A DNA stretch of 64,000 nucleotides, from positions 1-64,000 of the forward strand of contig JAPJBO010000296.1 of NCBI GenBank assembly GCA_030068145.1. The letters run 5' to 3'. The notes below the pieces were generated by a model. The model searched no databases, was not told where the DNA came from, and worked only from the letters and a program-made list of their open reading frames with translations. Shown here piece after piece: positions 1 to 61,493 of the stretch. The translations under genes were made by a program, and so were the position numbers. Source of the stretch: Diplonema papillatum. Lineage: Eukaryota > Euglenozoa > Diplonemea > Diplonemida > Diplonemidae. Positions within the stretch are counted from its first letter, which is position 1. The number at the start of each line of letters is the position of its first letter.

Positions 1-2170
1 GCCTTGCCGCTCCTGTCTTCTTGCTGTTGCTGCCTTGCTCATGCTGCCTTGCTACTGCTGCTTTGCTTTGCTGCTGTCTTGCTTCTGCCGCTGCCTTGCC
101 GCTGTTGCCTTGCCGCTGCTGTCTTGCTGCTGCTGTCTTGCTGCTGCTTCCTAGCTGCTGCTTCCTTGCCGCTGCTGTCTTGCTGCTGCTACTCTTGCTG
201 TTGCTGCTCCTGCTGCTCTGCTGCCTTTCTCCAAAGCTGTGGAATTCTCGCAAAACCAAACACTGTGGTCAACGACCTTCCCCACTTCGAAATGGAAAGC
301 CTTGCAAAGACTGATGTTCATTGCAAGCTTCGTTTTCCAACTTAAGCGCTTCAAACAAACTTCGTCTGTTGTTGCTGCTGCTGCCTTGCCGCTGCTATGA
401 TGCTGCTGCTGCTGCCGCTGCCGCTGCCTTGCCGCTGCTGCCTTGCTGCTACTGCCTTGCTGCCTTGTTGCTGCTGCCTTGCTGCTGCTGCTGCTGCTGC
501 AGCCTTGTTGCTGCCTTTCCGCTGCTATGTTGCTGCTGCTGCTTCCCTGCCGCTGCTGCCTTGCTGCTGCTGCTGCCTTGCTGCTGCTGTGTTGCTGCTC
601 CTGCTTCCCTGCCGCTGCTGCCTTGCTGCTGCTGCTGCCTTGCTGGTGCTGCCTTGCTGATGCTGTCCTGCTCCTGCTGCTGCGTTGCTGCTGCTGCCTT
701 GCCGCTGCTGCCTTGCTGCTGCTGCCTTGCCGCTGCTGCCTTGCTGATGCTGCCTTGCTGCTGCTGTCCTGCTGCCGCTGCAGCCTTGCTGCTGCTGTCC
801 CGCTGCTGCTGCTGTCTTGCTGCTGCTGCATTGCTGTTGCTGCATTGCCGCGGCGGCCTTGCTGCTGCTGCTGCTGCCTTGCTGCTGCTGCCTTACGGCG
901 GCTGCCTTGCTGATACCTTGCTGCTGGTGTCTTGCCGCTGCTGTCTTGCTTCTGCTGCTGCCTTGCCGCTGCTGCCTTGCTGATGCTGCCTTGCTGCTGC
1001 TGTCCTGCTGCTGCTGCTGCCTTGCCGCTGCAGTCTTGCTTCTGCTGCTGCCTTGCTGCTCCTGCTGCCTTGCTGCTGCTGCCTTGCCGCGGCTGCCTTG
1101 CTGCTGCTGCTGCCTTGCTGCTGCTGCCTTACCGTGGCTGCCTTGCTGATGCCGCCTTGCCGCTGCTATCGAACTGCTGCCGCCTTGCCGCTGTTGCCTT
1201 GCCGATGCTGTCTTGCTGCTGGTGTCTTGCTGCTGCTGCTGCCTTGCCGCTGCTGCCTTGTTGCTGCTGTCTTGCTTCTGCTCCTGCCTTGCTGGTGCTG
1301 CCTTGCCGCTGCTGCCTTGCTGATGCTGCCTTGCCGCTGCTGTCTTGCTTCTGCTGCTGCCTTGCCGTTGCTGCCTTACCGCGGCTGCCTTGCGGATGCC
1401 GCCTTGCCGCTGCTATCGTGCCGCTGCCGCCTTGCCACTGTTGTCTTGCTTCTGCTGCTGCCTTGCCGCTGCTGCCTTGTTGCTGGTGGCTTGCTTCTGC
1501 TGCAGCCTTGCTGATGCCGCCTTGCCGCTGCTGCTGCCTTGCTGATGCCGCCTTGCTGCTGCCATCGCGATGCTGCCGCCTTGCCGCTGGTGCCTTGCTG
1601 CAACTGCCTTGCTGCTGCTGCCGTGCTGCGGCTGCCTTGCTGCAACTGCCTTGCTGCTGCTGCCTTGCTGCGGCTGCCTTGCTGCGGCTGCTGCCTTGCT
1701 GCGGCTGCCTTGCTGCGGCTGCTGCCTTGCTGCGGCTGCCTTGCTGCGGCTGCTGCCTTGCTGCTGCTGCCTTGCCTTGCTGTGGCTGCTGCCTTGCTGC
1801 GGCTGCCTTGCTGTGGCTGCTGCCTTGCCGCGGCCGCCTTCCGGATGCCGCCTTGCCGCTGCTGTCGTGCCGCTGCCGACTTGCCGCTGTTGCCTTGCTG
1901 CTGCTGCTGCCTTGCTGCTGCTGCCTTGCTGCTGCTGCCTTGCTGATGCCGCCTTGCCGCTGCTATCGTGATGCTGCCGCCCTTGCCGCTGTTGCCTTGC
2001 CGCTGCTGCCTTGCTGCTGCTGCCTTGCTGCTGCTGTCTTGCTGCTGCTGCCTTGCTGCTGCTGCCTTGCTGCTGCTGCCTTACTGCTGCTGCCTTGCTG
2101 CTGCTGCCTTCCTGCTGCTGTCTTGCTTCTACTGCTGCCTGCCTTGCTGCTGCTGCCTTGCTGCTGCTGC
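1..2170. repeat. CTG-rich 14-bp minisatellite
   Basis: The block is built from the unit GCCTTGCTGCTGCT (14 bp) with variants: GCCTTGCCGCTGCT, an extra CTG giving 17 bp, and GATGCC, GCGGCT or ATCG interruptions in a looser higher-order pattern. Fourteen is not a multiple of three and the unit has few stop codons, so several frames stay open and give Leu/Cys/Ala-rich or Gln/Ser/Ala-rich translations. I treat these as by-products, not genes. A unique stretch of about 150 bp (roughly 225-375) interrupts the array. The left end of the array lies outside the window. Confidence 0.85.
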
Positions 2171-2186
2171 TGCTTTCTTGCCGACC

Positions 2187-2345
2187 GATTTTACGCCTGG
2201 GAAGAGTAGGTGCGCAGCTCGGAGGCCAGATACGAAGTTAGGGGCTTTCACCCACAGCAAAGGAACTGCTTGCCTTGGCCGCGTTTCGAAAAACACGTTT
2301 CCAGGGGACACCACGAGGAGGTGGCAAGTCAGATTTTGTCCCCCA
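2187..2345. repeat. Dispersed repeat R1, copy 1
   Basis: This stretch starts near TTTTACGCCTGGGAAGAGTA and ends in GATTTTGTCCCCC. It is nearly identical to 3268-3428 and, over its first 105 bp, to 4473-4578. It directly abuts the CTG minisatellite. No coding content is recognised. Confidence 0.8.
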
Positions 2346-14142: not shown

Positions 14143-15660
14143 GTAGCTTGCTTTTTCGATTTGGCACTGACCTCGGTCAAACCTGGGTCAAAAGCTGGGA
14201 CATGTTTTCATCCTCAAGTTCCCATTGCTCGGACAGAACTAGCAACTACCACATAACTAGCAGTGTTAGTTATATTACTAGCTGTCCCAGTAGAACAACC
14301 AGTGAAATACAGTGAAACTGCATTGAGCTGAGTCAAAAAGGACGGTGTCTTCCAACTTCAGCACTCAGACTAGGTAGCCTGGCCCACTTTTTCATGCTAT
14401 CTGCTGCTCGGCTGTCTCGGTTGTCTCTTCGTCAGTTTCCGTTGTAAAGGGGGGGGGATTGCAAGAACGTGCTTGAAATGGATATGTGCTCAACACCACA
14501 CTGGTCCCGTCTACGCCGTGTTTCAGTCATTTAAGCCATGGACACATAAGGCGGACCACAATCAGCACGGAACCTGAGTGTCTGCAGACAGGACTGCGGT
14601 GTGAGTCTGGTTTGTCAGGCGGCTGTTCGTAGCTCGTCACAGCCAGGACCACCCATGCTACTAGAGCACAGGCGAATCCGTCACGGGGAGAAGGCCCCTA
14701 CAACCGTGTCTGAGCAATCAGTTAAAAAGGGCAGGTGTGGAGAGCAGAAACCTCGGGTCATCAACAACACACGTCGGTAAGAACATGGTTTGAATTTTCG
14801 TGATGTGGCTTTTTTGAATCAAATAGACCACGGTGGCAACATTTCTGACTTTGACAACCTGGTCAGTTTTGCTATCACAGAAGCAGCTGTAAAGTTGGGC
14901 CAGCTCGTTGGTGTCGGTGGTGTGGTGAACACCCACCGCTTCCCGCATCTGAGCCTGGGGGAAATGCAGGTGGCCGGTTTGGATCGATTTTGGGGGGTGT
15001 TGCGCCTGGGGCCAGGTGGGTTAGCCCTGCCCTCCACGATTGTAAGGGGATGGCTATGAAATTGATTAGTGTGCTGGACTCCGAAGCAAACACGGTACTG
15101 CAGGCGGTATGCAAACGACTCTGTGTTGACATCTCGCACGCCAAAGGAGGTCATGTGCGAGACGTTGTAAGAAACATGTCATCGGAGAAAGGGTATGCAA
15201 CGGTATCCAGGTGGCTTTTTATCTGCCTTGCTGAGCTGATCGACTTTCGGTACTCGGACATCCCCTGGGGTTTCTGGGGCAAAAAAGAAGCATCCTACCG
15301 CATCCCCTTCCTCTGAGCCAGGGTTGCAGGGCATGTCTTTCTGATGTTAATGGAAAAGACAAAGCCTGGGTCGACTCGCAATGCATACTGTCACAGTCTG
15401 GAGCATTGGTGGGACCCACTGGATGCGCTGCCTTTCGGCCTCTCGGATGAGCCCAGTGAGGCTGAAAACGGAAGGAGGAAGAGGACGGCCACTGTGACGA
15501 GTCCCCAAACGTACGAACTGGACAAGCGATGATGGAGCAGCAGAAATGGTCCCTCCCCACTGAGCGTATTTCTGTGGAGTCTCAGAGCGGATTGCGGGAG
15601 TACCAGAGCATTTTTAGAGTTAAAGTTCGCTTGAAATTCCGGGGTTTTAGGGTCTCCGTG
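14143..15660. other. No gene recognised
   Basis: About 1.5 kb with only short, mutually overlapping frames on both strands. A poly-G run lies at 14449-14457. Nothing else is supported. Confidence 0.4.
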
Positions 15661-15745
15661 TGACCGTTCATGAATGGGTTCTCTTAGAGCAAGAAAGGGC
15701 TATGTGGATACGGGTTGTATATTGCGTGCACGCTTTCGTTATGGG
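15661..15745. repeat. Dispersed repeat shared with the MMUT intron
   Basis: The stretch from CATGAATGGGTTCTCTTAGA to GCTTTCGTTATGGG closely matches 39185-39260, which lies inside the methylmalonyl-CoA mutase intron. It lies about 320-400 bp beyond the stop codon of the retroelement frame, so it may be part of that element's 3' untranslated region. The following 15746-16062 has no recognisable feature. Confidence 0.7.
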
Positions 15746-16062
15746 TTATGGCTAGCCATGTCCGGGACTGTTTGTGACCGACACCAAGTACATTCCTTCG
15801 TGGAGTGTAGTCTTGGGCCCCCCACGTTCTACAAGTTGAGCAGGGGTTGCCTTGTAGCCCGTACCGGTCTGTTGTCTGCGTTTATATGTATTTTCTCGCA
15901 GTGTGGTGCTTGGATTTCGCGGCACTTGCGGTGCTTCACGTGGTGCGGGTTGTTTCCGTCCTAAAATAAGGTTTTTTTTGGGTAGATTTGCAGGGTAAAA
16001 CTGTTCGTTGCTCGCCACAGTTAAGGCACTCTGGGCACACTGGGTACCCGTGGTTAGTGAGG

Positions 16063-19000
16063 TTATTCGTCTGATGGAGTCGTCGTTGCTGTGCGTTGTT
16101 TACAGTGCTTCTTTTTGCACCAGGGCTTATGGTGTCGTAGACTTTTGAAGAGTGGTTTCCCCACGGTTCGTCCGTCGCTGTGGCAGTAGGGACATCTCTC
16201 TCGTTTCTGGGTGGTGCTTCGCAGCGTTGTTTCTGCTTGTGACTTAGTTCTGGTTGGTTTCTTCTTGCAGTAACGTAGGTGCGTCCGTAATCCTTGTTTT
16301 CCCTTCAGTTTGAGGCCGGTTGTTGTTGTGCGTGTGTGGCAGTGGGGACATCGTAAGTCGTCTTCACTGCTGGTCTCTGTTTCCGCGGTGGTACTGGAGG
16401 TCTGTGACGTGCCTGGTGTTGTGGGTGTTTGTGTGCTGTCGTGTCGTTGTGTGGGTGTGTCGGTAGATGTCTCGTCTCCGCGCATGGCTCTAAGTATACT
16501 TTGCGTCGAGTCCGGCTCTTGTGTTGTGGTTCTGGACGTGGCAGGCTTTGGGGGTTCATAGTGGTTGTGGTCTATGGGTGGCGGGACATCCGTCTGTGGG
16601 TAGTCTTTGAGCTGGTAGACGCAGAGGTAAACTTCGTTGTCGGCGTAGTTTTGTGTCGAAGTGGAGTGCGTCTGTAGTCCGTCGAAGCGCGTCCATCGTT
16701 GGTTAGCGTCGATATCGTTGAGGGCGTGGATGACGTAGTGCCCTGCGTTGTTGTGGCCGGAGTGTACTGCTATGGCTTTGAGAACGAGTGGTGTGTTTTG
16801 TCCTGGCAGCGTGATAGAGTGGTCGGCGCGTATAGCGGTACGGTTCGTCGCTTCGTGTCTACGGGCTCTTTGAAGCTGAATCAACAGCATTGAATTAATG
16901 CGGTGAAATGTTGTTGTTGTGAGGGTGGTATCGGTGATTTTGCAGACTTCGCATCTGTAGTCGGCGGCGGGGCCAGGTTTGATGTGGTTGTTCAAGCACC
17001 GTTGGATCGAGTGGTCGATTGGAGGTAGAAAGGTTATGTCGTGGTCTTCGGGGGGGTTGGTTTTGTTGTGGTTGCAGTTTTTACAAGTAGTTGTCGTCGT
17101 CGTTGTATGTCGTAGACCGTTGAAAGCGTCAGGGCGATGTTGCTGGCAAGCTTGGTGTGCGAGGTTTTCGTCAAGAAGTGCTGTGGTGATGGCCCTTAGC
17201 ACTTCCCCGAGGTCGCATTGCTGCCCGTTGCCGAACGGTCCGTCGATGTTGGCGAAAACGTGCAGCAGTGTTGCTTGCGTCCGTTTTCCTGTCACCCAAG
17301 CGTGGACAGCTGCCGTGCATTCGCCTTTCGTGTGTGTTGGGCAGTCGTGGTATGTGACTACTTGTTGTGCCATGTCTGTGGCGGCGATCAAGTTGAGGGC
17401 CGCTTGCAGAAAACAGGAGTTTGTGGTGGTGTATCTCGTGAGTTTCGACATGGTCCTCGCTCCGGCGGCTGCGATTGCTGCCGCTAAAGTGATGGTTGCT
17501 GCTAGGTTGGCTACTCGGTGTTTCAAGGTGAACTGTGGTTGTGGTTGTGAAAGGAGGGTTGTTGGTCTTTCCTCGTGTTCGTGGGTAGTTGAGGAGTGGC
17601 TGTCTGTCATTGAGTCGCGATCGTCCGGTGTTACAGGCAGTTCGGCTGGTTTGAAGTTAAGGGGTTGGTGTCTTCCGGCGTATTCTGGCTCTTCCATGCG
17701 CGGTTTGCCGTTCTTGAAACGCGCAATGCTGTACCCTAAGAACGGTTTTAACTGGCTGTGTAGTCGTGGTAGGGTTCGGAACTCCTCCGTCAGCCAAGCT
17801 TGCCACGGGGGGTAGAGAACTCTGGGGTGGTGCCCCCGTTCGAGCATCGCGTATACGTTGCGCTGGATCTCGACGCGAAGGTCCTGCCAGTGGTTGGTTT
17901 GTCGGATTGCCCTTATCAGTGAGCCTTTGAATATGCCGCTGGCCTGTGATTTGGGGGCGGTGGTCTGGTAGTGTGTGAACCGGGTGCCGAAGGTTTTGGG
18001 GTGCACGCTTAGTCTTATGTGTGGTGGGTGTGGTGTTGCGGGTCGTTCAATGCGTATACGTATTCCAAGGAAGACGATGTCGTCGCGTGCAGCTGTCGTC
18101 TCTTTGTACTCCATACGATAGAGTGATTGAGGTGGTGGTTTGCAGTCCCATTGGAGGAAGTCATCTATGAATCGCCATGTGTCGACGTGGGCTTTGGCTT
18201 CGTCGACTTTGCCATCTGCTAGCAGTCCGTCTATGTACTCGGACTCCACACTGTAGCAGTACAAGTTCGCCAGGTCCGAACTTGCATTGCCTCCCATAGG
18301 TATGCCTTCCGTCTGGCGTAGTATGGTTTCGTCCTGCTCGATGTAGGCATTGTCGATGACAAAGTTGAGTAGGGCTTTGAGTTCTTCTTTTGTATAATTT
18401 CGACTGGTGTTGTTCGCCCCTTTGCCGAAACTAAAAGTCTTTTTGCCCTGTTGCTTAGCTCCTCGGGTGAGGTGGTTGTGGCCGTGTTTCTCCTCGTATT
18501 CATAAGCTTCGTCGACAGCTGAACCAACCCTGCGCTTGAGATCCGCGTGCGGTAGGTTGGTGTACATTGTCGTGAAGTCGTGGTCGGTGGGTGTTTTGTA
18601 TCTCAGATGGGTTTGACGCTGTTTGACGTTGAGGGCTATGTCGTCGGGGCTCTCGGTGAAGAAGACCTTCTTTATTCCCGTCTGTCGTTGGTTCCGTCGG
18701 TCCTTTTCCTTTATCGTCCGCATTATAGCCTTCAGCAGTCCGGACAGCTCTAGGTGGGCGTTCGTAGTAGTTGCTTTCGGTTTCTGCTTGCGCGCGGTTG
18801 TCTTGTTGTCTTTCCTTACAATGTCTGTTGCTACGCCCGCAATCCACCGGAAACTCGGTTCGGCTTTATGTAATTTAAGACTGCCGTAGAGGTAAGGTAG
18901 TCCGCCTTGTGCTTGTAGTTTGAAAGGCTCGAGTTGCTGCTTGTGCTGTTGTTGTAGCTGGGTCTTCGTAATATTTTGCTTCTTGTATGTGGCACTGGTT

Positions 19001-19323
19001 TGTATTTGCTCCCGTAGTGTGTTTGTGTAGTACGCCTTGCAACAAAAACCGAAGTCGTGTGTGGTTTTGTCTACGGGCAGTATCACCAGGTCTTGTTTGA
19101 GTCTCTTGAGTTCTTGCGATGCGATACGGCTCAACGTTTCTTCGTCAGATGGTGGTAAGGTGGCGAGGCGTCCCGAAAGTCCTTCAACGCTGTTCCAAAA
19201 GCGGAAGCGTTTGGTTCCGACGGGTAGTATTTTTCTACGTATTCGTCTATGGAAGTGTGTAGTCCGTCTTCGAGTGCGTGATGGTCCTTGTAGCAGCGGT
19301 ATTTTCGTCCGCGCTTGATACAC
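16063..19323 (-). CDS. Reverse transcriptase fused to USP-like cysteine protease and zinc fingers
   Basis: An uninterrupted 1086-codon frame. RT part: LPYLYGSLKLHK (143-153), motif A DFTTMYTNLPH (249-259, D249), motif B GIPMGGNASSDLANLY (340-355), motif C RFIDDFL (384-390, D387/D388) and FLGIRI (418-423). The RT resembles Penelope-like elements. A GIY-YIG endonuclease is not visible. USP part: Cys box NSCFLQAALNLI (Cys637), QQCDLGEVL (701-709, like the QQD box), CKNC (747-750) and CEVC (791-794) as in USP zinc ribbons, and the His box HSGHNNAGHYVIHAL (His862), ending NEVYLCVYQ. The C-terminus has two C-x2-C...H-x3-C fingers (992-1019, 1044-1069). In USPs the Cys and His boxes hydrolyse ubiquitin isopeptide bonds. 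A role in protecting element proteins or in host interaction is inference. The first codon is GTG, so translation probably enters from the upstream frame. Confidence 0.85.
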   Translation of the reverse strand: MYQARTKIPLLQGPSRTRRRTTHFHRRIRRKILPVGTKRFRFWNSVEGLSGRLATLPPSDEETLSRIASQELKRLKQDLVILPVDKTTHDFGFCCKAYYTNTLREQIQTSATYKKQNITKTQLQQQHKQQLEPFKLQAQGGLPYLYGSLKLHKAEPSFRWIAGVATDIVRKDNKTTARKQKPKATTTNAHLELSGLLKAIMRTIKEKDRRNQRQTGIKKVFFTESPDDIALNVKQRQTHLRYKTPTDHDFTTMYTNLPHADLKRRVGSAVDEAYEYEEKHGHNHLTRGAKQQGKKTFSFGKGANNTSRNYTKEELKALLNFVIDNAYIEQDETILRQTEGIPMGGNASSDLANLYCYSVESEYIDGLLADGKVDEAKAHVDTWRFIDDFLQWDCKPPPQSLYRMEYKETTAARDDIVFLGIRIRIERPATPHPPHIRLSVHPKTFGTRFTHYQTTAPKSQASGIFKGSLIRAIRQTNHWQDLRVEIQRNVYAMLERGHHPRVLYPPWQAWLTEEFRTLPRLHSQLKPFLGYSIARFKNGKPRMEEPEYAGRHQPLNFKPAELPVTPDDRDSMTDSHSSTTHEHEERPTTLLSQPQPQFTLKHRVANLAATITLAAAIAAAGARTMSKLTRYTTTNSCFLQAALNLIAATDMAQQVVTYHDCPTHTKGECTAAVHAWVTGKRTQATLLHVFANIDGPFGNGQQCDLGEVLRAITTALLDENLAHQACQQHRPDAFNGLRHTTTTTTTCKNCNHNKTNPPEDHDITFLPPIDHSIQRCLNNHIKPGPAADYRCEVCKITDTTLTTTTFHRINSMLLIQLQRARRHEATNRTAIRADHSITLPGQNTPLVLKAIAVHSGHNNAGHYVIHALNDIDANQRWTRFDGLQTHSTSTQNYADNEVYLCVYQLKDYPQTDVPPPIDHNHYEPPKPATSRTTTQEPDSTQSILRAMRGDETSTDTPTQRHDSTQTPTTPGTSQTSSTTAETETSSEDDLRCPHCHTRTTTTGLKLKGKQGLRTHLRYCKKKPTRTKSQAETTLRSTTQKRERCPYCHSDGRTVGKPLFKSLRHHKPWCKKKHCKQRTATTTPSDE

Positions 19324-19640
19324 TCAGTGAGGCCTTTGTCTTGTGTTATATCGAATATATCGAAAAGGTGTCCGATCGCGTGTCCTTGAATGTTCTTGTC
19401 GCCACGGTAGTGTCGGCACGCGCATTGATCGGGTGGACCGAGTGCGAGGTCTGGCAGGCTTTTACTGACTTCTGTGATGTTCTGGACACGTAAGAACAGT
19501 GGTGGGTTTAGTCGGAACGTCGTCTTGGTACGATCTACCTCGCTGAGCCTATCCTTCAAATGGGTTTCCAGCGTGATGACTTTCTTTGGTATACCTTTTC
19601 TCCAACCAGCGTTTCTGACCCCCGAAACGCAGAAGCACGT
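19131..19640 (-). CDS. N-terminal frame of the retroelement, offset from the RT frame
   Basis: Open from just after a TAA near 19640 to a stop at 19131. It contains CACRHYRGDKNIQGHAIGHL, then LTECIKRGRKYR and SIDEYVEKYYPSE, which recall the region upstream of RT in Penelope-like and related invertebrate elements. It overlaps the RT frame by about 190 nt in a different phase. No ATG starts it. It and the RT frame may once have been one frame, or a frameshift may join them. Confidence 0.5.
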   Translation of the reverse strand, partial: TCFCVSGVRNAGWRKGIPKKVITLETHLKDRLSEVDRTKTTFRLNPPLFLRVQNITEVSKSLPDLALGPPDQCACRHYRGDKNIQGHAIGHLFDIFDITQDKGLTECIKRGRKYRCYKDHHALEDGLHTSIDEYVEKYYPSEPNASAFGTALKDFRDASPPYHHLTKKR

Positions 19641-29876: not shown

Positions 29877-30530
29877 TTAGGCAGAACGCTGCTGTTCATA
29901 CATGATTGATGCTTGCATCAAGTCTTTGTAGAAGAAACACAGCTTGGAAGGCGCGGTGCTGCAGATGGAACTGGAAACAAGTGGACTTTCAATGATTGGG
30001 GGATCTAAATCGGAGGTGCCAACCTCCTCGCGGTCGTCCCCATCGATGTGCGCAAGCACAGCTAATGGCAACTCGTGCACAGTGCGGTGCTCAGGGTAGT
30101 TGAAGGCCTGTCAGGAATCCTGAGGGACGGTAGTCCTAATGCAATCCCTTACCAAACTCTTGGCAGCACGAAAAAGTCGGGCATGGAGGTAGTGAGCAAT
30201 GGCAGAAAGCTTCCGTTCGAACATGGAACCGAAACCGTCAACATCACAGAAGTCGTCAGAAAGCCTGTTGAAGCCTTCAACGACAACGCCAAGCAACTGC
30301 TCAGGAAGCCGTCACTCATCAGATCCGCTACCTCAGCACCTGTGGCGCACATCACAGCCCCAAGCCCAAGGCCCTTTTCCCCCTTTTCATACAACATCTG
30401 TAGCCCTCGGTGGTGTGAAGCCACATACTTTTCGTCGTTTTTGCTTGCAGTGCATCGAAGTCTCGAGGGTGTCCGAATGGACATAGCCTCGAGCCAAAGA
30501 CAGTGCAAAAAATACTCGATGTAGCTGCTT
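29877..30530 (-). CDS. Unidentified spliced gene, or 3' part of the NDUFA5-like gene
   Basis: Last exon about 29877-30110 (CCTGACAG acceptor), ending PSKLCFFYKDLMQASIMYEQ plus RSA and TAA. The exon before it reads LLGVVVEGFNRLSDDF and LSAIAHYLHARLFRAAKSL and ends in a GTAAGG donor near 30149. Further upstream the frame MSIRTPSRLRCTASKNDEK then GLGLGAVMCATGAEVADLM looks coding but sits one phase off. No family recognised. The antisense frame at 30075-30524 is also open and cannot be fully excluded. Confidence 0.35.
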
Positions 30531-30755
30531 CGACTCCGAATGGAAGGGAAGAACTATAGAGGTAAGGGGCAAATACAATGTCCGTTCAACACGTGCGCGT
30601 AAAAGCGTAAATGGATCTTGCACTTTTTTTTGCCGAAACACCCGTAATAAGGGCAACACACGTGCGCCGGGGGGCTCGCACAATGGGCCTGGCAACTCTT
30701 GCCTTGCCAGGGAAGTATATGTCGACGTGTCCTTTTGGCCTTGAGCTAGGCATAC

Positions 30756-31571
30756 CGAGACTTGAGTATTCGCGAACCCGGCGGGCCTCGTGCGATTCAC
30801 TGTCAAAGTTTCTGGCACCATGGACTGAACTGTGCCGTCACCCGAGATTTTGAAGGCATTGTTCAACCTTGTTTCGCGGATGTACTCGTCAACCGCGGCT
30901 TTGTATTCTGCACGCTTCTCTACTCGCGCTTGCTGGTCGTCAAGCATCATCCTTGACGTTTTTCCAGCCAGTTTTTGCAGGTCTTGCTGAATGTGCTTCT
31001 GCTCCTCGGCCATTCGTTGTTGATCGATCTTCTTCATATCGTTGATTTCTTCGTCCGAAAGGTACGGCTCCGGCGGGCCGACAAGGTTGAAGTAATTGTC
31101 AGCTTTCATCTCCTCGTGGATTTCACGGACTGTTTCAATTGGTATGAGCCACAGCTTCCACTCGCAATAAGCTTGCACCAGCTCGCGCTCGTCCATTGCG
31201 TAGTAAACAAGTTGTTCCACCTGACCGAGCCCAATCTTTCGCTCGACGATCCGCCAGTCGGTGTCACCAACGTTGCTGACAATACGCAAAAACTCGCGGT
31301 AGATTGCTTCGACAACCATGCGATAAGCGTTGTCCTCTGGGATCATCTTGATATCATCGAGAATGCGGCTGTACAGTGCTATCAGTTTTTTACGCCAACG
31401 GTGTTCAACAGGGATTCCAGCAAACCCTGTTGTGGCTTTGAGAGGATTGTTCCATGGTTCATCGCCGTAAACAACACGAGGGTCGAACATGTCTGACTGT
31501 GTTGACCAGTAGTTTGCACTGGTCCCGATCATCGCATTGCCACCGCACCGGATGGCGGTCCTACGGAGCAT
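30756..31571 (-). CDS. NDUFA5: NDUFA5-like complex I subunit, first exon
   Basis: True ATG at 31571. Exon 1 is 272 codons, phase 0, ending at a GTATGC donor. LKATTGFAGIPVEHRWRKKL, ALYSRILDDIKMIPEDNAYR and later LVQAYCEWKLWLIPIE match the family pattern KTTGLVGL...LRILYTKIL..IP..AAYR and the late WKPW helix of NDUFA5, an accessory subunit of the matrix arm of mitochondrial complex I. Human NDUFA5 is 116 residues. This protein has about 45 extra N-terminal residues, probably including the targeting peptide, and more than 100 extra C-terminal residues with a Lys/Gln-rich helix. The downstream exon is unresolved and may lie at 30500-30540. Confidence 0.75.
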
Positions 31572-38919: not shown

Positions 38920-41507
38920 TTAGATGGAGACCTTCTCGTTCAGCCTGTCCAGCAATTCCATGGCAGCTTTTGGAATTGGTGTCCCTGTCGGATTTGGTGT
39001 CGAATTTGATAGCAGTTGGAAGGGGCCGGCGCTACGCCTGTGACTGAAATAGCAAGTCGTTTCTTGCACAAATACGTATCGAGGGGAAGTCTGCTAAACA
39101 AGCAAAATGCCACGCCTTTTGTGCAGCTCAACCATAGCCGGCTCAGGGTTTGCACATCTGGCCTTCGGCTGACCGTCTATGTATCATGAATGGGTTCGCT
39201 TAGAGCAGGAAAGGGCTATGGTTGCGGGTTGTATATTTGGTGCACGCTTTCGCTATGGGACACACTGTCTCTGCATTTAGCAGTGGTAGACTTCTTGCTG
39301 CTTGGGAGTACAGAAGATTTTCGTCCGTGTTGCAAAAGAAGACCGCCTCAGTGTAACAGTTTCGTCGGACAAAGGAAAAACATACCTGGGCCAAAAACGC
39401 ACGCGACGCCAGCGTCGTACAGCTCTTTGTAGTCCTGCTGCGGAATGACTCCCCCAGCGATGACGAGAATGTCGTCAGCGCCGCGAGCCTTCAGCTCTTT
39501 AATCAGTTGAGGGACGAGAGTCAAATGGCCTGCCGCAAGCGACGAGGCACCGACAACGTGAACGTCGGCGTCGACTGCCATGTCAGCGACTTCACCGGGG
39601 GTCTGGAAGAGAGGCGCCACATCAATGTCAAAACCAAGGTCGGCGAAGCCGGTGCCCACGACTTTAGCGCCTCGGTCGTGGCCATCTTGACCCATCTTTG
39701 CAACAATCATACGGGGTCGGCGTCCGACACGCTGCTCGAAGGCTTTGACTCTGGCAACTACTTCGTCAATCACCTTCTGCAATTCGTCGTTTGTGGCGTA
39801 TTCGCGGTTGTAAACCCCGCGAACCATCCCGTCCTTTGCGACATGCCGGCCGAACACTGCTTCCATCGCATCTGAGATCTCACCAAGTGTTGCTCTGTGC
39901 TTCGCGGCTTCGATGGCCAGGGTCAGCAGGTTTCCGTCCCCCTTTGCAGCTTCTGTGATGGCTTCGAGTGCCTGCTTCACCTTCGCAGAATCGCGGTTTT
40001 CCTTCACTTCCTGAATTTTCAACTTCTGCGACTTGATGACAGCCTTGTTGTCAATTTTCAGCACGTCGTAGTTTTGATCCTCCTTCTCTGCCTTGTATTT
40101 GTTAACGCCGACGATGACCTGCTGCGCAGAGTCAATTTTCGCCTGTTTTGTTGCTGCCGACGCTTCGATGCGAAGCTTCGGCATTCCTTCAGCGACGCAC
40201 TTTGTCATTCCTCCCAGCTCTTCCACTTCTTCGATGATGACCATAGCTTCTCTGATCAGATCTTCGGTCAAGGTTTCCATCATGTACGATCCTCCCCACG
40301 GATCCACAACTTTGCAGATGCCTGCTTCTTCTTGCAGAATAAGCTGGGTGTTTCTTGCCAAACCCGACGAAAACGCTGTCGGAAGACCGACCGCCTCGTC
40401 CAAGGAGTTCGTGTGCAAGCTCTGAGCGCCGCCCATGACGGCGCTCATAGCCTCGATAGTAGTTCGGATGACATTGTTGTACGGCTGCTGTTCCGTCAGA
40501 GACCACCCGGAGGTCTGTGTGTGCGTTCTGAGGAGCAGAGACTTCTGGTTCTTCGGCTCGAAGAGCTTTTTCACCATTGTGGCCCACAGTGTGCGTGCCG
40601 CCCGAAGCTTGGCGATTTCCATGTAAAAGTTCATGCCGATGGCAAAGAAGAACGACAACCTCGGCGCGACCTCGTCAACAGTTAACCCTGCCTTGAGGGC
40701 GCACCGAATGTATTCGAGCCCGTCCGCGATTGTGAACGCTAGCTCCAAAACGTTGTTGGCACCCGCTTCCTGCAAGTGGTAACCGGATATCGAAATCGAA
40801 TTGAACTTCGGCTGGTACTTGGCCATGTGGCCCATGATGTCCGAGATGATCCGCATCGAAGGCTCGGGAGGGTATATGTATGTGTTCCGCACCATGAACT
40901 CCTTCAAGATGTCGTTTTGAATGGTACCCGTCAGTTTCTCCTGGGGTACGCCGCTCTCTTCCCCGGCCACTGCGAAGAAGGCGAGAATGGGGATGACTGC
41001 ACCGTTCATCGTCATACTCACTGATACTTTGTCCAAAGGAATGTCCTGAAACAGCCTCTTCATATCGTCCACTGTGTCCACAGCGACACCAGCCATGCCG
41101 ACATCACCCTCCACTCTGGGATGGTCACTGTCGTAACCTCTGTGTGTGGCCAAGTCAAAGGCGACGGACAACCCTTGTTGCCCCATTTCCAACGCTTTCT
41201 TGTAGAAGGCATTACTCTCTTCCACTGTGGAAAACCCGGCGTATTGGCGAATGGTCCAAGGCTTCACGGTGTACATGGTCGCATGCGGCCCTCTCGTGTA
41301 CGGGAACACGCCAGGCAGCGTCCTCTCCACGGGGCACTCCGTGTAAATAGGGCGGATGACAACGCCCTCCTCTGTCATCTTGCAAAGATCCTCCGCATTG
41401 CCTTTGCCCCGGAGCTCTTTCGTCGCCACCTCGACCCACTTCTTCGGCAGTGCCGCCTTCGCGCGTGCCATCTTGTCCGCGCATCCTAAGATGCGGCTTC
41501 GTCTCAT
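38920..41507 (-). CDS. MMUT: Methylmalonyl-CoA mutase, mitochondrial type
   Basis: Exon 1 is 39386-41507 and exon 2 is 38920-38984. The 401-nt intron (GTATGT donor, GACAG acceptor, phase 1) splits GPG-T. The joined C-terminus reads [20 protein letters not shown] then TAA. The protein is 728 residues. A second ATG at 41471 would give 716. Colinear with human MMUT throughout: [22 protein letters not shown] block ([20 protein letters not shown]), [28 protein letters not shown], and the cobalamin motif D608-x-H610-x-x-G613 in [10 protein letters not shown]. It converts methylmalonyl-CoA to succinyl-CoA using adenosylcobalamin, in propionate, odd-chain fatty acid and branched amino-acid breakdown. 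The basic N-terminus may be a mitochondrial targeting signal. The organism therefore probably depends on vitamin B12. Confidence 0.96.
39178..39262. repeat. Dispersed repeat inside the MMUT intron
   Basis: Counterpart of 15661-15745. Both contain CATGAATGGGTTC, TTAGAGCA(A/G)GAAAGGGCTAT, GGGTTGTATAT and GTGCACGCTTTCG in the same order and spacing. It occupies the middle of the 401-nt intron. Confidence 0.7.
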
Positions 41508-42817: not shown

Positions 42818-43663
42818 TCATTCTCGATCCGCTTTCCCGTGAAATGCAGAACGGCCCTTTTTGCTGCTGCTGGCACACATTTCACTGATGATAGGAGAAG
42901 TGCTGATTGCAGCTGGTGTACGCCCCGCTGCATCTTCAATATCTGGATCAGCACCGTGGTCGATCAGAAACTTGGCAGTGTTGACCCATCCAGCCATGCA
43001 TGCGCAGTGCAATGCTGTCATGCCCATGTATGATGCTGCGTCAATGTCAGCTCCCTTGCTGAGCAACAACCCGAGGCTCTCGTCATCACCTTGTTGGGCG
43101 GCGACGTGCATGGGTGCCATGCCATTGACAAGGAGTACGTTGACACGCGCACCTGCGTCGGCGAGGAGCTGAATAATTTTCCGTCGTGAGCTGCCCTTTG
43201 ATTGTATGGCGAGCACCATTGGGGTCGCCCCATTGCCATCGGCCGCATTGACGAGAGCCTCGTGATGGACGAGGTACTGCACCACATCGAAGTTGGCCGC
43301 TTCTGCGGCACGATGGAGAGGGGTCGTGCCGTCGTAGTTTGCGATGTTCACTTGGGCACCATTTCGGCACAGGTATTCGACGACAACTTGTTCTTTCGCG
43401 GCCCCGACCAGCAGCGGCGTGTTGCCTTGTTTGCTGATGATATTCAAATCGGCGCCCCTTTGGTGCAGCAGCTCCACCAAAGCGACGGATCCGCAGGCGC
43501 AGGCGCAGTGGAGAGACGTGCCGTGTGTAGCGTCGCAATGCGTAATGCTGGCGCCCTTCTCAAGGGCCCGCAGCACAAGCTCAACGTTTCCAGTGAGAGA
43601 TGCATCTATCAACTCCATGTCAGAGGGCGTAGCTTGTTTGCTTTTATCATTCGATGCCGGCAT
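42818..43663 (-). CDS. Ankyrin-repeat protein
   Basis: 281 codons from the ATG at 43663. I chose it because repeats start soon after and the upstream in-frame sequence lacks protein character. About seven ankyrin units run from residue 15 to 265, for example GNTPLLVGAAKEQVVVEYLC, GTTPLHRAAEAANFDVVQYL and GMTALHCACMAGWVNTAKFL, each ending in GAD or GA-type turns. Nothing else is fused. Ankyrin repeats bind protein partners and the target cannot be inferred. The upstream 43664-44178 has no supported gene. Confidence 0.8.
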   Translation of the reverse strand: MPASNDKSKQATPSDMELIDASLTGNVELVLRALEKGASITHCDATHGTSLHCACACGSVALVELLHQRGADLNIISKQGNTPLLVGAAKEQVVVEYLCRNGAQVNIANYDGTTPLHRAAEAANFDVVQYLVHHEALVNAADGNGATPMVLAIQSKGSSRRKIIQLLADAGARVNVLLVNGMAPMHVAAQQGDDESLGLLLSKGADIDAASYMGMTALHCACMAGWVNTAKFLIDHGADPDIEDAAGRTPAAISTSPIISEMCASSSKKGRSAFHGKADRE

Positions 43664-44178
43664 GTTGTTGTATTGCTTATTGTGTTGCCGACTCTGGTAT
43701 ACTTCTGCGGTTTGGTGTATGGTGTATTCCCGGCAACCTTCACAGTTGCCTGTGCGTTCTTGAGAATGTTGAGCCAGGAGGGGATCTAAATCACGCGCAT
43801 AGGCCACAGGAAAGCCCCCGTTTTCGGCCTCTAGTTTCGCGCATGCAAGCTCGCTTCTTCTGCGAGACGTCTCGGCTCGATCAATGACCACCATATCGGG
43901 CTCTTCGCAATGGACGCAGGATGTTTTTCCGCTCAGGCGAACGGAGACAGGTGTCAAAGAAAGCAGTTTGTCACGGAAGGCTCGAAGAGCAAGGCAAGAG
44001 TGTAGGATTTGGCAAGATGGCGATTCGCGTGAGACGAAAAGAGCGGTCTGGTCTAAGTACAATGCAGGATTCCTTGTGTGCCTGTCCAGCAGCTAGGTGT
44101 GGGCTTCAAGCGTGTACTAGTGGTCTAACTTTCGCCGGTTTGTGGGAGATCTGCTTCACTGCTCAATGCTTGAACATC

Positions 44179-45801
44179 TCATAAACTGGGCTGTTGGGCT
44201 TCGTTGGGACTCGCAGCGGGTGATTGGGTGCAGTGCGCGACAGGCGACGATATTTCCTCTGCGAGAAAGCGTGGAGACCGCGGTTGCTGTGAATCGGACG
44301 GGATGGGGGACTGGGCTGACGCTCTTCGTGAGCGTACAGGTATGTCGTTCGGAGGTGGTGCAGCTGCAGGTTGGTCAGTCGGGATTCCGCAAGATGTAGC
44401 GACAGAAGGAGGAGAGGCGGGCTGCCCAGCTGTGGTACGGCCTACAGGAGCGTGAGCCAAAGCAACTCTCCTATTACTGAGGGATTGAGACCTCAGATCC
44501 GCGGATCGGGCACCAGGATTGGGGTCTGGTACAGATGAGTAATCTTCCGGTTGTTGCACCTGTTCCGTGTAACCTTGAGCTTCCCCATCTGCTTGAGGTG
44601 GCGGGACTGGTTGAAGTGATCTGCTTCGAGAGTGTGCGGTTTGCATAGGCTCGGTTCCGCAAGCAGCTGTCTCGGCATGGGTATACTGAGGCGGGAGAGA
44701 GCTCGCCAGCGGTGGGCTTTTTTGCCCCAAACTTGCAAGGACTGCAGCCGGGTGCAGTCGCGTGTTCGTCGGATTCGAGCTATCAGCAGCAGGCACAGTG
44801 TTACCCGCCGAACTCGACATCGCACTGCGCGCACTGCGTCCTGCAGTCAGACTATCGCTTGGCGGCAATGCCGCAGCAGGACTGCCCAAGCGTGGCGCGG
44901 TTTCTGCTCGACAGACACGAGGAGAAAGACTCGCAAGGCGGCTATCGACAGCCTTCTTGAGAGCTTCTTCCATATCAACAGACCCGGTCGGCTGCTGGTT
45001 CAAGTGGGACATGTGGGGCAGAGGAGCACTGTGAGAAAACGAAGCTGGCGGAGGAGTGCCGCCTCGACTGGCAGCGGGGCTGCGTGGCGGCTTTGGGACA
45101 GTTAGCGAGTGGAGGTCGGTGAACAGCTGGTGCATTTCACCGAAGACGGCAGTGCACCCGCGGAGGTAAGTTTGGAGAAGGTTGGCCATGATCGAGTCTT
45201 TGTGATCGATGTTTCCGCGCATGCCGCGCTTCGCTTCTTCGTTTGCCCGCTCGTACTCGAAGGATGTTTCTTCAAACTTCTGCTTCTTGCGGAGGTACGA
45301 CTGTGAAGTAGATGGGTCCCTACCTTCCTTGCGAAGCTCGTCTCCCTTCGAGACGAACTCGTTGCGGTAGTAGTCGTACGTATTCCGCTTCTTAGTACGA
45401 ACATCGCGCAGCTCGTCGGTCTTCTTCAGTTCTGCATCGTACAGTGCCAGGAGTTCGTTGCAATCCGTTTCGATCACCTTCTGGAACGGGGGGTAAACCA
45501 CCTTTTCAACTTGCTCTGCTGCATCTGCGAGCTTGTTCACGACAGTTGTCAGCTGCTTGTTTGCGGGGTAGTCGTCCTTGTACTCTTCCATCAGCAGCTT
45601 CTCCAGAGCCTTGCTGACGTTGTGAATCGCGGTGTTTACTTCTCGCATGGCCTTGTCCATGTCGCTCATCCGCGAGCTGCAGAGTTTGGTCGCCTCTCGG
45701 AGTGCCTTCGTCATTTCCTTGGTCACCTTGTAGTCCTTGTCCACAGTCTTGTCGCTGAGGCCGACCTTTGACCACATGTTCTGGGACACACGATGCAGCA
45801 T
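44179..45801 (-). CDS. BAR-domain protein
   Basis: 540 codons from ATG 45801. Residues about 10-235 are a long helical BAR-type domain: MLHRVSQNMWSKVGLSDKTV, ALEKLLMEEYKDDY, VVYPPFQKVIETDCNELLAL and TKKRNTYDYYRNEFVSK, like the BIN3/Rvs161/amphiphysin group. Such dimers sense or shape curved membranes in endocytosis and trafficking. The remaining 300 residues are Ser/Pro/Ala-rich and look disordered, without a recognisable SH3 domain, so partners may bind short motifs. It is next to the AP-3 delta gene on the same strand, but there is no evidence of a functional link beyond both acting on membranes. Confidence 0.75.
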   Translation of the reverse strand: MLHRVSQNMWSKVGLSDKTVDKDYKVTKEMTKALREATKLCSSRMSDMDKAMREVNTAIHNVSKALEKLLMEEYKDDYPANKQLTTVVNKLADAAEQVEKVVYPPFQKVIETDCNELLALYDAELKKTDELRDVRTKKRNTYDYYRNEFVSKGDELRKEGRDPSTSQSYLRKKQKFEETSFEYERANEEAKRGMRGNIDHKDSIMANLLQTYLRGCTAVFGEMHQLFTDLHSLTVPKPPRSPAASRGGTPPPASFSHSAPLPHMSHLNQQPTGSVDMEEALKKAVDSRLASLSPRVCRAETAPRLGSPAAALPPSDSLTAGRSARSAMSSSAGNTVPAADSSNPTNTRLHPAAVLASLGQKSPPLASSLPPQYTHAETAACGTEPMQTAHSRSRSLQPVPPPQADGEAQGYTEQVQQPEDYSSVPDPNPGARSADLRSQSLSNRRVALAHAPVGRTTAGQPASPPSVATSCGIPTDQPAAAPPPNDIPVRSRRASAQSPIPSDSQQPRSPRFLAEEISSPVAHCTQSPAASPNEAQQPSL

Positions 45802-46780
45802 CTTTCCTCCGGTATCAATTACCCCGCCCGCAGGTCCCGCCTTCAAGTTTCAAGCCGCTCAAAACATGCGTTCAAGTCTCCCTCAAAACATCCACTACTG
45901 TTTCTGCATGCGTGAAACTACCGAGTACGTGCTTGGTGAGTGGAAGCCAACTGGCAACAACTGAAGGTAGTTCTGCGTGCGGGAGATTGCCGAGTAGTTC
46001 CGTGATTGGAGTCACTACCTTGGAACGCCAAGAAAGGCAATGATGTTCCGAGCGGAAAACTGCTGTTTGCATCTTGTGTTTTCCGAGTACCAATTTGTGG
46101 TCAAATTGTGCAACGCGGTGTCACTTCTCAAACGAAGGGAAAGTGTGCATGGAAATACTACGTTTCTGTTCTTGGTTTCTTGTTCTTGAATGGACGAAGC
46201 AAGCTCAGTCACAAAGGACTACGGCAAAACTGAAAGTATCGGCGGTTCTGTGAGCGCAATATGAAGAACGAACAATTGGAAGCAAAAGAGGATTAAAAAA
46301 GCAGTTTCGAAGAAAGTGTGCATTGCTTCTCCACAACACATAAAGCCACAAGGCACTACACATAAACAGAAAGTGTACAACTACGTTTTGAGACCCCTGT
46401 TGAGACGGCCCGGAAAGAAAGAAGAAGAACAAGACCACAAAACGCAAATCTGACTTTCTGTGGGTTTCACAGCGGAGGCGCAACGTGGGTAGCGGCAAGC
46501 TTAGAAAAACGGATCAAGAAAAAAATGTGTCTTTGCAGCGGTCGAAGCTTCGCACCGTCACTTTTTTCTTCAATGAGCGGTCTTCTCATGGGGATCTATT
46601 GCTTCGGACAACACCAAACACCTAATATCGAGGCAAGCGCCATGCGTACTCAACAAGAAAATGCCACCTTATACGCCAAGGGTGAAGGTGCATCAGAGTC
46701 TAGAAGAACTGCACGAGGCAGCGGCAGCTCCGACGAAGTGGGCTACAATCGGCAAGGCTGGAGGAAATGATACAAAACAG
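45802..46780. other. No gene recognised
   Basis: About 1 kb between the BAR and AP-3 delta genes. Short frames only. It should hold the 3' end of AP-3 delta and the promoter of the BAR gene, but no element is recognised. Confidence 0.4.
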
Positions 46781-49700
46781 TTAGCTGTCCAGCCAGTCGA
46801 AAGCATCTTTGGGTGGTTCCTTGGCTTTCTTGGAGTCAGCACCCTTGGGTGCCTTGTCTTTGGCATCCTTTTTGCCCTTCTTTTCTTTCTTGTCTTCGGA
46901 TTCCTTCGCGCCGTTCTTGGTTTCTGTTTCCTTTTCTTTCTTCGCGGGCTTGGCAGGCTCCTTCGCCTTCTTTTCTTTCTTTTCTTTCTTTTCTTTCTTC
47001 GGTTTTACTTCGGGTACATCTTCTTCGCTGTCGATGATGACCTCCTTCTGCTTCTTCTTCTTCTTGCGTGCCGGCGAAGATGTGGCTGTGTATCGACCGG
47101 AGTGGGTGAACAAGTTTTCGACAGCTTCGAGCAGGGCTTCCGCGACTTCGGGCTCTGCCGTTGTTTTCAGTTCCATCTGTACCTGAGACGACGACGTGGC
47201 TTTGACTAGCATACAAACGGGGAACTTGTCTTTTGGAGTGACGTACTGGCCCATCAACGCAGCACAGCTGTCGAGGACTTCTACAATAGACATTTTTGTA
47301 GCGTCTCCTATGGCGTGCAGGGCCGCTTCCATGCCGCCGTCGACGTCGACAACAACTTTCGAGACGACCTTGTCTTCGCTGTCGTTCATTTCCTGCATCG
47401 TCGTGAAAAATAGTTGGCGGGTCGCCTTCTCCTTTTTCAGCTTCGACATAGCATCAAGGTGGCCGGTAACCAGAGTCAAGGTGTGGGTCTCTGGCACCTC
47501 TTTCGTCGAAAACGAGACCATTGCTTCGATGTCTTGGACTTCCGTCAGCTCTAGCGTGAGCAGGATGGTCAGTGACTCGCCTTTGCCTACCTTCAGAACA
47601 TGCCCGTCTGCAGTCTGGCTCACAGCGCCTTGGCTGATCTTGAATCCTTCGCCAGCGCTCACTTCGACTTCAGGATCCTTCACTTTCAATGCGAGGCTCT
47701 GTGAGAGTTTCGTAACAGAACACTGGTTGTCTAAGAGTGATAGACAGAGATCAGCAATCCCATGGCCTTACCCACCCACCAGCAGTGTTTTCATAGTCAT
47801 CACTACCGCGCTGACCTTTTGTGAGGAGGAGGAGTAGTAGTCCGTCTTAGCAGTCTCAGGGTCTCTTCCGTGACTAAAAGTGTGATCTCGTAAACGTTTT
47901 GAGGCCAAGGTCAAGCGGAGAAGTTCATACCCGAAGCGCTACTTTCCCAGTGTTGGTGATAATCACTTTGACATCCATCTCGAGCTTTCCCTTGGTCCCC
48001 TTCTTCTTTTTCCGCTTGCAGTCGAGCACATGCACGTCGACGGCGGCCTGACCGCATGAGAACATAGACGTGGTTTCTTCTTCGTCCGGTTCTTCGAGAC
48101 GCGCCGCCTTCTTCTTCTTTTTATCCTTGCCGGCCTCCTCCGATGCGTCATTCTCCGTTTTGTCCTTCTTGTTCTTCTTTTTCTTCTTTTTCTTGTCGTT
48201 GGCATCATCGTCGGAATCCGACCCAGCTTCCTTCTTCGCTTCTTTTCTCTTTTTGCGCTCCTGTTCTTTAAGGATGTCGCTGGCATCTTTGCGCTCGTAG
48301 GGTTTCATCTGTGGATGTTAGTTAGGCTCTAGTCCAAATCTCGCACGATGAAGGGCTGTTTATTGTGTCTTGACGAAGTGTCGCTAAGCTTCGTTTTCAG
48401 GGGACGCTCTCGGGTGAAGTCGTATACCAGGGCAAATTCGGATAAGAATGTTCAAGCTATCTATAAGCATGTACAATCATTACTCACCTTCTGGAGGGCC
48501 AACCTTTCTAACAGGGACACCCGACCTTTCAGCACGTTTCATGGGAGGGCAGCCAAACATTCGCAACGATGATGGCTCCTTGAACGAGTTCCGAAAACTG
48601 GTATCGATCGCAGCAAAAGAACCTGATAGGAATATCAAGGCAAACGAGCTCGTCTTGCATACCGTGGGCAAGGTATCCTTGACAGGGCCGTTGAGGTCCT
48701 GGTCCAGCTCATTCCAGACGCCTTCTCGGTCGGCTTCCTGACCGTCGCGCACCTTTTTCTTCCCGTTGTGGTCGTACTCGTAGCCCTCCGGGCCTTCCTC
48801 GTCTTCGAGCATCTTGTGTCGCTTCTTCTTGTCCTTCTTCTGCTTCATGACAAAACCTTTGGTGCCGAGACTCAGGTCGCCGAGGTCGACAGTGAGTTCC
48901 TCGACAGGCGGCAGGTCGTCGTCTTTCACTTTTTGCGAGGTGTCGAGTGGCTTCGTGGGCGAAGGCGCGCTGCCGAGATAGTGCGGGTTGTTCTTCCGGG
49001 CGAGCTCGGCCGCCACGCGCTGGCGCTCCTCTTCGGCTTTCACGCGGGCCTTCGACTTTTTCTTTCCTTTCCCCTTCGCGTCCCAGTCTTCGTCGCTGGA
49101 GGCGGATGAGGACGCGGTCGAAGAGGAGAGGGTTGCCTCCGATTCGTCGTCGGAGAACTGCGGGACGTAGTCGACAATCTGCGTGTCGAGGTCGGTCTGC
49201 AGCTCGATGTGTTCTTGCGCGCCTGGTTTGACGGATCGCAGCCCGTTTTTGAAGAACGTGGACAGAGCGGGTGCCTCGCCTTCCTGCAGCAGCGCCCAGT
49301 GCATGTCCAGCAGCGCCCGAACTGAAGCCGAATGCTCGTGGACGTCGACGTCACACGACGCGAGGAACATAGCCAGGCCTTCGGGCAGCTCTTCTTCCTT
49401 CTGTGCGGCGGGGGCCGTCTGCGGCTGCTGGCTTCGGGCCTTCCCGGCGCGCGCCTTCTTTTTCGATGCCTTCGCCTTCCGTTTCCGGACGGCGCTGCTG
49501 TCCGAGCTGTCGTACGAGCCGTCTTCTTCGCTTTCCTCCTCTTCCTCCGCACCGCGCGAGTCGTCGTCGTCCTCGTGTGTCTTTCCGTTCTCTTCGGCCT
49601 TGTCGACATCGGGAAACATGGCTTCTCGGATCTGCTCCAGCTTCGAGTCGTCCTCCGGCAGCGTCTCCTCTTCGTCCTCATCGTCGTCGCTGTCTTTCTC

Positions 49701-51320: not shown

Positions 51321-51861
51321 CTTCGCTCGACTAGATAGACGGTGCACGGCTTCGCGCCGGAAATGCGGGGAGTGTTCTCGCCAAAGCGACAGAAAAGAAG
51401 GGGGGAGAGGAGAGCAAAATAAAAAAAGGCAACCACCCCCGCCCCTGCACCAGACCACACCTCCTGTTTTGTCGTGTGGGTGTTGGCATGCTATTCCGCT
51501 GTGCAGCTCCCAGGTAATGCAATGCGGTCTCGTAGCACGAAGCATCTGCAGCCTCACAAGTTCGTGGGCGAGCTAGTTATCATTTGTGTGCAACTGCGGC
51601 GAGAAGTGCCAGCGGTTGCATCTGCGGTGTCCGGCACCCGACACAGACGGCGTTGGCTAGATTATTTGGACAAGAACTCGATGGAGCAAGCTTGCGGCCC
51701 TAAGTGCCACAAACAAAGGAAGCTTCCTTCCGGTGGTGGCAGCGCGGCAGATAAGGAAGAGTAAACGGGGAACGGAACGTGATGTATGGGATCATCCAGC
51801 ATGACGTAAAAAATCAAAAGCAAATGAAAGGCATCGCGCTATGAGGACAGAGATGAGAGGC
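51321..51861. other. Intergenic, 5' of AP-3 delta
   Basis: No gene. It contains the AP-3 delta 5' region and the eL43 copy 1 3' region. No element is recognised. Confidence 0.4.
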
Positions 51862-60462: not shown

Positions 60463-61493
60463 GTGTCCTTCCGCTGTGTCCGCAGCGCCGGATTCCTGGC
60501 GACCAGCTTCCTTTGGGAGGGGGTCGCTTCCGACGGTTTTTCCTGGGATGTTCTTCCGGAGTTTGCTGCAGTTCTTAGCTGGTCCCCCGTCAAGCAAACA
60601 ATTCGCGCGTCGCAAACCCAAGCGTGGCGGTTGGGTGTCTCTGGTGCACCAGCACAGTTCTTGTCACTCAAGTGTCGCGCCCACGCACGCCCAAGGCATT
60701 CTTCCACGGGCTCGACTCGCAATACCAACTCGCTCCAAATCGAGGAAGAGGACCTGCTTCGCGCAACAGCCACCTTGAAGACACTCCCGCATGGCCAGCT
60801 TGCGGCATGCGGGGCGGCATGAACAACAGACACTCGATAAAAACGACTACCGAAAAGTGTAAGATGACGATGCTTAAAATCACAGTGTGCTAGAGCAAGG
60901 TTCACGAAACGGAGCGAGGCGGCAAGGAAGCAAGCAAGGACGGCTGCCGAAGATTTACTCAACGAAATGCTGCAGTTCGCTTTTTGACTAACTAAGGCGG
61001 TTGCGACTTCCTTGTCTCGCGCCAAGTAGCGCGAGTATCACGCAACATCCCAAGAGTTCTGTGATCATCAGCATGCCAACACGCCAATGAAGTTGCAAGC
61101 TAAGCAATCAGTGATGAATCCGCACCGTTGAGTCTGGTTGCTGGATCACAGCAGAACGACGTCAGCGGAGCTTGGAAAGGACGGCCCCTCGAAGCATCCC
61201 GAGGTTTTTTTTAGATCATCTATTCTGATCCAGGTCAGACTGCATCGGGGGCGAATGCCTCCTGCACACCTGCACACAGCCGGCGCAGCTTTGTTTGCTA
61301 AGGGACGCAACTCATTTTTTTTGTGCCATGCTGTAGAACTCGTGGCAAGGCAACCATCTCCCCAATGGTGGGCTCTTGCGACGTTGACGCACCAAGAACC
61401 GCGTTTGACACGCACATGAGTGTTACACTACCACGCAATATCTCGAAGCTCCAGCAGCCGAAGACAGCCGATGCAGGTGCTCACTGAGGCGGT
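60463..61493. other. Intergenic
   Basis: About 1 kb between the MFAP1 stop and the cystinosin-like start. Short frames only. An A/T-poor region with no promoter element I can name. Confidence 0.4.

Follow-up and report, generated by a model that had tools for sequence, protein, structure and literature searches.

A retroelement family of Diplonema papillatum with reverse transcriptase and a predicted USP-type deubiquitinase in one protein

Results

A truncated retroelement copy in the window

The window, a 64,000-nucleotide stretch of the genome of the marine flagellate D. papillatum (contig JAPJBO010000296.1, positions 1 to 64,000), contains a retroelement remnant on the minus strand (Table 1). 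In blastn comparisons with four longer copies of the same family, here designated family A, the remnant aligned over a main stretch of ~3.93 kb at 94.8–99.2% identity and over a 5′ piece of 52–56 bp at 94–100% identity, the two being separated by a ~142-bp deletion. The family 3′ end is present. The 5′ limit, ~19591, falls within the coding region, and the GIY-YIG endonuclease of the family is absent. The window also has an extended tract of imperfect simple repeats of the CTG/TGC type and, around the element, host-like genes that all lie on the minus strand. The types represented are NDUFA5-type, methylmalonyl-CoA mutase, ankyrin and BAR proteins, adaptin (AP-3 delta-like), a PQ-loop protein and an MFAP1-like protein.

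Table 1. Features of the window, in positions of the 64,000-nucleotide stretch.
Feature	Position	Strand	Basis
Tract of imperfect CTG/TGC-type simple repeats	1..2200		
Element remnant, 5′-truncated	15611..19591	−	blastn against four longer copies; 3′ terminus CGAACTTTAACTCTAAAAA
Element 3′ untranslated part, short A run at end	15611..16062	−	blastn and 3′ end comparison
1086-codon open frame	16063..19323	−	ORF; homologous copies align from residue 47
Second CxxC-H-C finger, residues 1044–1069	16117..16194	−	Motif layout
First CxxC-H-C finger, residues 992–1019	16267..16350	−	Motif layout
Predicted USP (C19/UCH) domain, residues 633–903; C637, H862, D881; CxxC 747/750, 791/794	16615..17427	−	Pfam UCH, PDB profile, AF2, Foldseek, VIA, conservation
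Predicted reverse transcriptase region, residues 47–515; D249, D387, D388	17779..19185	−	AF2 model; telomerase RTs top matches
Upstream protein piece in another frame: CxC ... GHAIGH ... GRKYRC motif region before RT	19131..19559	−	142-codon ORF
Host-like gene	30387..31571	−	
Host-like gene	39348..41507	−	
Host-like gene	42818..45846	−	
Host-like gene	48480..51557	−	
Host-like gene	55717..60621	−	
Host-like gene	62388..63377	−	

An earlier note on this DNA, made from its letters alone, had described an open frame of 1086 codons. We confirmed the frame and the residues ascribed to it: D249 and D387/D388 of the reverse transcriptase (RT), Cys637 within NSCFLQAALNLI, His862 within GHYV, a QQ-D-E box at residues 700–707, CxxC pairs at 747–750 and 791–794, and two C2HC fingers, which have the layout CxxC-H-C. 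Residues 1–46 of the frame are an out-of-frame reading that is foreign to the element protein, since the other full genomic rows align from residue 47 on; the exception is one full row with two stops, which aligns from residue 21. A frameshift near 19180 splits the main frame from the upstream piece, whose residues are nearly the same in the longer copies C52 and C187 and are there in frame with the RT. Because the window copy starts within the coding sequence, lacks ~142 bp and changes frame, it cannot encode the full protein. It is a broken member of a family with other copies that stay open throughout. The intactness attributed to it in the note thus applies to the 1086-codon stretch alone, the element itself being without GIY-YIG, deleted and frameshifted. 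From this intactness, recent activity or selection had been surmised; the premise does not hold for this copy, and recent activity is instead inferred from its sister copies.

Family A in the D. papillatum genome

The search of the 271-Mb assembly for family A scored 42 of 3535 first-look candidates, which makes the following counts lower bounds. At least 46 genome rows match. At least 22 of them, the window's own included, are free of stops over residues 47–1086 or beyond, and no two of these lie on the same contig. The remaining rows among the matches listed are fragments or bear stops. These numbers rule out a chance open frame or a single assembly error as the source of the RT–USP fusion. 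Both domains stand in one frame in other copies, for which the earlier note had proposed a search, and the fusion is more widespread in D. papillatum than that note saw. Copy identities among the matches listed fall at ~95–100%, 71–75% and 65–66%, with one at 83% and a few short end pieces outside these groups.

Longer copies were recovered from contiguous DNA, with open frames of 2602 codons in C52 and 2762 codons in C187. In both, the order is a repeat-rich N-terminus, a GIY-YIG region (KGVVYALVDERGNPRYVGQT...), the CxC and GHAIGH motif, RT, USP and two CxxC-H-C fingers. The N-terminal coding region of these copies comprises repeat copies shifted by ~190 bp, which precede the GIY-YIG region within the open frame; a Pfam scan of the N-terminal repeat part of C187 yielded no match.

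By our reading of the loci, at 24 of 30 the element ends at or close to a common 3′ terminus, CGAACTTTAACTCTAAAAA, and the flanks differ; 12 of the 30 start inside the element, at differing points. A common 3′ end together with varied internal 5′ starts is as expected for target-primed reverse transcription. Target-site duplications gave no clear signal in 12 copies, the longest shared word being 4–6 bases as compared to control means of 3.9–4.7 and control maxima of 5–7. The sole copy to surpass its own control maximum was L018 (6 bases, by one base). L023 is flanked by sequence similar to a repeat that occurs, without the insert, at ~22200–22300 of the window; by eye, ~30 bp of target seems to be missing, not duplicated.

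The RT is predicted to be of the Penelope/telomerase type

Pfam RVT_1 did not match the window frame and no match was found between the RT sequence and solved RTs; fold comparison was used instead. For the AF2 model of the RT (pLDDT of 72.3 overall, higher in the core), the best 14 Foldseek matches and the best 14 structural-aligner rows were all telomerase RTs. The model supports assignment of the RT to the Penelope/telomerase type, the class that the earlier note had proposed and with which the GIY-YIG region of the longer copies agrees.

The putative GIY-YIG endonuclease shares a frame with the RT in the longer copies of family A and in two further families, B and C, described below. Relative to the Pfam cut-off of 22.6 bits, this region scored above in P0012 and P0007 (23.0), at the cut-off in P0011 (22.6) and below it in the family A copy L003 (17.6 bits, E 0.0049). 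Canonical Penelope-like elements have a C-terminal GIY-YIG endonuclease. In the D. papillatum elements the endonuclease is N-terminal; permuted Penelope-like groups with an N-terminal endonuclease were reportedly described by Craig et al. in 2021. When pseudo-LTR or tandem arrangements were sought, a 371-bp copy of the element 3′ end was found ~1.1 kb before the C187 copy, without direct abutment. No hammerhead ribozyme was present among 29 Rfam matches to E 0.1 from six loci, all of which were microRNA families below gathering score.

The second domain is predicted to be a USP under purifying selection

Residues 630–905, in which a USP-type domain had been proposed, were matched by Pfam UCH from 633 to 903 (E 4.3e-11; 43.3 bits against a cut-off of 23.9; profile positions 6–254 of 254). 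A profile built from element sequences alone also matched USPs in the PDB; this is the trusted profile, the alignment of the first having included host USPs. An AF2 model of the domain (pLDDT of 80.4, pTM of 0.77) was compared using Foldseek and VIA, and both comparisons support the USP fold that the note had suggested looking for by structure prediction. The assignment of the second domain as a USP is thus supported by profile and by modelled fold.

The family A USP possesses the Cys-His-Asp triad and the Q-x-D-x-x-E box. Across the 31 loci examined, C637 and H862 are invariant and D881, which we take to be the catalytic Asp from its counterpart in USP7, occurs in 30. In USPs, the residue five positions before the Cys is usually Asn. 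Family A has Thr at this position (TTTNSC), and the Cys boxes of families B and C are canonical, with Asn. The triad is also kept in the USPs of families B and C and of the SLACS-like elements described below. Among seven pairs, dN/dS of the USP was 0.08–0.15 in five, dS being saturated in the other two; for the RT it was 0.03–0.04 in three, two of these values resting on dS near 2, with dS saturated in four. These ratios show purifying selection on the predicted USP.

Families B and C are annotated as USP16

Of 935 candidates from a genome profile search with PF00443, 149 were scored. Each exceeded the cut-off, and many of the 149 matches listed were repeated copies with identical scores. Eight loci were fetched, namely families B and C and six others, of which L050 is family-B-like. 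The open frames of family B (L036, 1562 codons) and family C (L037, 1585 codons) run from stop to stop and are ordered GIY-YIG, CxC, RT, USP, finger. Exactly these lengths recur among the matches listed, at 13 or more places for 1562 codons and at 12 or more for 1585. The RT of family A shares 37–38% identity with its counterparts in B and C. The same search found a 1863-codon frame with two separate USP match pieces (G000:C2681:4754-7582).

The NCBI name for the family B and C proteins is putative ubiquitin carboxyl-terminal hydrolase 16: P0011 was 100% identical to the family C query and P0012 was identical to family B at 1484 of 1485 residues. The annotation should be corrected, as the reference genome for this very abundant group of marine organisms lists element proteins as USP16 genes. 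Counts of host USPs in D. papillatum may be inflated by mobile elements. The genome paper, in the portion available (PMC10161547), reports ~2500 retroelement-type gene models; its main text, to the same extent, has zero occurrences of Penelope and zero of ubiquitin.

The USP was probably inserted between RT and finger

The finger layout is common to families A, B (P0012) and C (P0011) and to a relative, P0003, from jgi/ena sources. This protein starts with a GIY-YIG-like region (Pfam E 0.15), contains an RT of 30% identity and terminates in a CxxC-H-C finger; the Pfam scan lists no USP in it. The presence of RT and finger without a listed USP in P0003, together with the finger layout shared by the three families, indicates that the USP was probably inserted after the RT and ahead of a C-terminal finger that was already present. 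Proteins with both RT and USP were absent outside D. papillatum among the matches listed by length-limited protein searches, two of which scored the best 7996 and 7988 candidates, ranked by shared words. Scans of viral_contigs revealed no viral relatives of either domain.

A SLACS-like element carries a related USP

A second carrier of the USP, a SLACS/CRE-like non-LTR element, is represented by P0005, named SLACS 132-kDa protein by NCBI, whose C-terminal USP piece is 59–60% identical to that of the window. This D. papillatum protein matches the assembly at 100% identity along 1773 residues. The P0005 family has single open frames of up to 4088 codons. In one of these (G000:C6:2091-14357, minus strand), made up of L043 and L044 and containing the gene model P0002, Pfam identified RVT_1 (E 3.3e-21), UCH (9.2e-8) and a 2OG-Fe(II)/AlkB-type domain (1.4e-11), as well as an OTU match (E 0.0008) below its cut-off. 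Two kinds of putative deubiquitinase, OTU-like and USP, occur together in this frame.

The USPs of the C6 frame and of L039, also SLACS, share 43–49% identity with the family A USP, which is 19–22% identical to the B and C USPs and 13–21% identical to five host USPs. In an unrooted tree of 14 USP rows, A and SLACS grouped together at 100/100 and B and C at 98/98; 6 of the 11 inner branches are weak, and the tree carries a warning that the long branches of the two groups meet. The RT of A is related to those of B/C and differs in kind from that of SLACS, yet the USP of A groups with that of SLACS; most simply, then, a USP passed between Penelope-like and SLACS-like retroelement classes. A stronger proposal, that two unrelated diplonemid retroelement classes draw on and exchange an active USP module because retrotransposition in this host is limited by the removal of ubiquitin, strikes us as having slightly less than an even chance. 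If true, a large part of what looks like the USP repertoire of the D. papillatum genome would be mobile-element protein.

Discussion

The RT–USP proteins suggest that these elements act on the protein-tagging system of the cell. The explanation as a whole, which we consider probable, is that family A is a Penelope-like family with an RT–USP fusion, that its USP is an active deubiquitinase held in the element RNP, and that this USP was later passed to or from SLACS-like elements. The full protein would comprise a repeat-rich N-terminus, a GIY-YIG endonuclease, a CxC motif, a telomerase-like RT, a USP and two zinc-finger-like motifs, and the family would move by target-primed reverse transcription. 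The USP would stay attached to the RNP and strip ubiquitin from proteins there. Its likeliest substrates would be the element's own protein and RNP, which would thereby be protected from the proteasome, followed by chromatin or repair proteins that carry ubiquitin where the element inserts. Placement of the USP between the RT and the pre-existing finger would have preceded its passage between Penelope-like and SLACS-like elements. Such a scheme would show ubiquitin removal as a function that retrotransposons carry for themselves, and the module as able to pass between retroelement classes.

Among alternative roles, the USP might bind ubiquitin without cleaving it, as a catalytically inactive module that directs the RNP to ubiquitinated chromatin. 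The unusual Cys box of family A, without Asn at −5, is consistent with this idea, which is nevertheless unlikely given the canonical Cys boxes of families B and C, the low dN/dS and a triad kept in nearly all loci examined and in B, C and SLACS. The USP might also process the element's own polyprotein in the style of a retroviral protease, as the earlier note had considered, and single very long multi-domain frames, from 1562 to 4088 codons, would suit such a role. USPs cut after the tail of ubiquitin. However, none of the four Penelope-like frames checked has an L-x-G-G motif and Pfam scans of the element proteins list no ubiquitin fold, which makes self-processing the weaker idea as compared to action on ubiquitinated proteins, and in our view a distinctly unlikely one; the SLACS frame has one L-x-G-G motif, at residue 1177.

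Retroelements can carry captured host sequence, according to the available portion of PMC6431247, and the USP could be a passenger gene fragment of this kind. However, the USP occupies the same place in three families, the RTs of which share as little as 37% identity, its dN/dS is far below 1 and its catalytic residues are nearly constant, which renders this reading very improbable. Finally, the USP16 names of the B and C proteins would fit insertion of a transposon into a host USP gene, or a frame joined in assembly, but the numerous nearly identical copies, which lie on different contigs and have differing flanks and a common 3′ end, leave this reading with next to no likelihood. Overall, a deubiquitinase that serves the element RNP is the reading that we prefer.

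Comparison with known systems

Among the mainly open-licence papers listed by literature searches, neither the titles nor the opening lines of the abstracts concern a USP within a retroelement. As compared to the C19 deubiquitinases USP46, USP12, USP8 and USP7, the D. papillatum domain has a similar predicted fold, the Cys-His-Asp triad, the Q-x-D-x-x-E box and the two CxxC pairs. It differs in that it sits in a retrotransposon protein and, in family A, in the Thr that replaces the usual Asn at Cys-5. Some retroelements carry ubiquitin-family proteases of the OTU or Ulp1 type. These, too, combine a retroelement protein with a deconjugating cysteine protease, whereas the predicted protease fold in the D. 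papillatum elements is that of a USP.

The elements resemble Penelope-like elements (Penelope/Poseidon) in having GIY-YIG and a telomerase-like RT in one frame, as described in the accessible part of PMC11167929, and in their 5′-truncated copies. By contrast with canonical members, their endonuclease is N-terminal, a USP and fingers follow the RT, and the N-terminus is long and repeat-rich. Burro, a group of giant LTR retrotransposons of planarians, likewise has added ubiquitination-linked domains (RING finger, MATH/TRAF), with which its authors suggest that it meddles with host systems; it is of the LTR class, and these domains are not USPs (PMC6431247, same portion). Host DNA methyltransferases have been incorporated in the coding regions of distinct retrotransposon classes, judging from the available text of PMC5890265. 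Those elements, too, have taken up an enzyme of a host regulatory pathway, one of DNA methylation and not of the ubiquitin system (PMC5890265). What the D. papillatum sequences appear to add is a retroelement with a captured deubiquitinase of the USP type, common to two retroelement classes.
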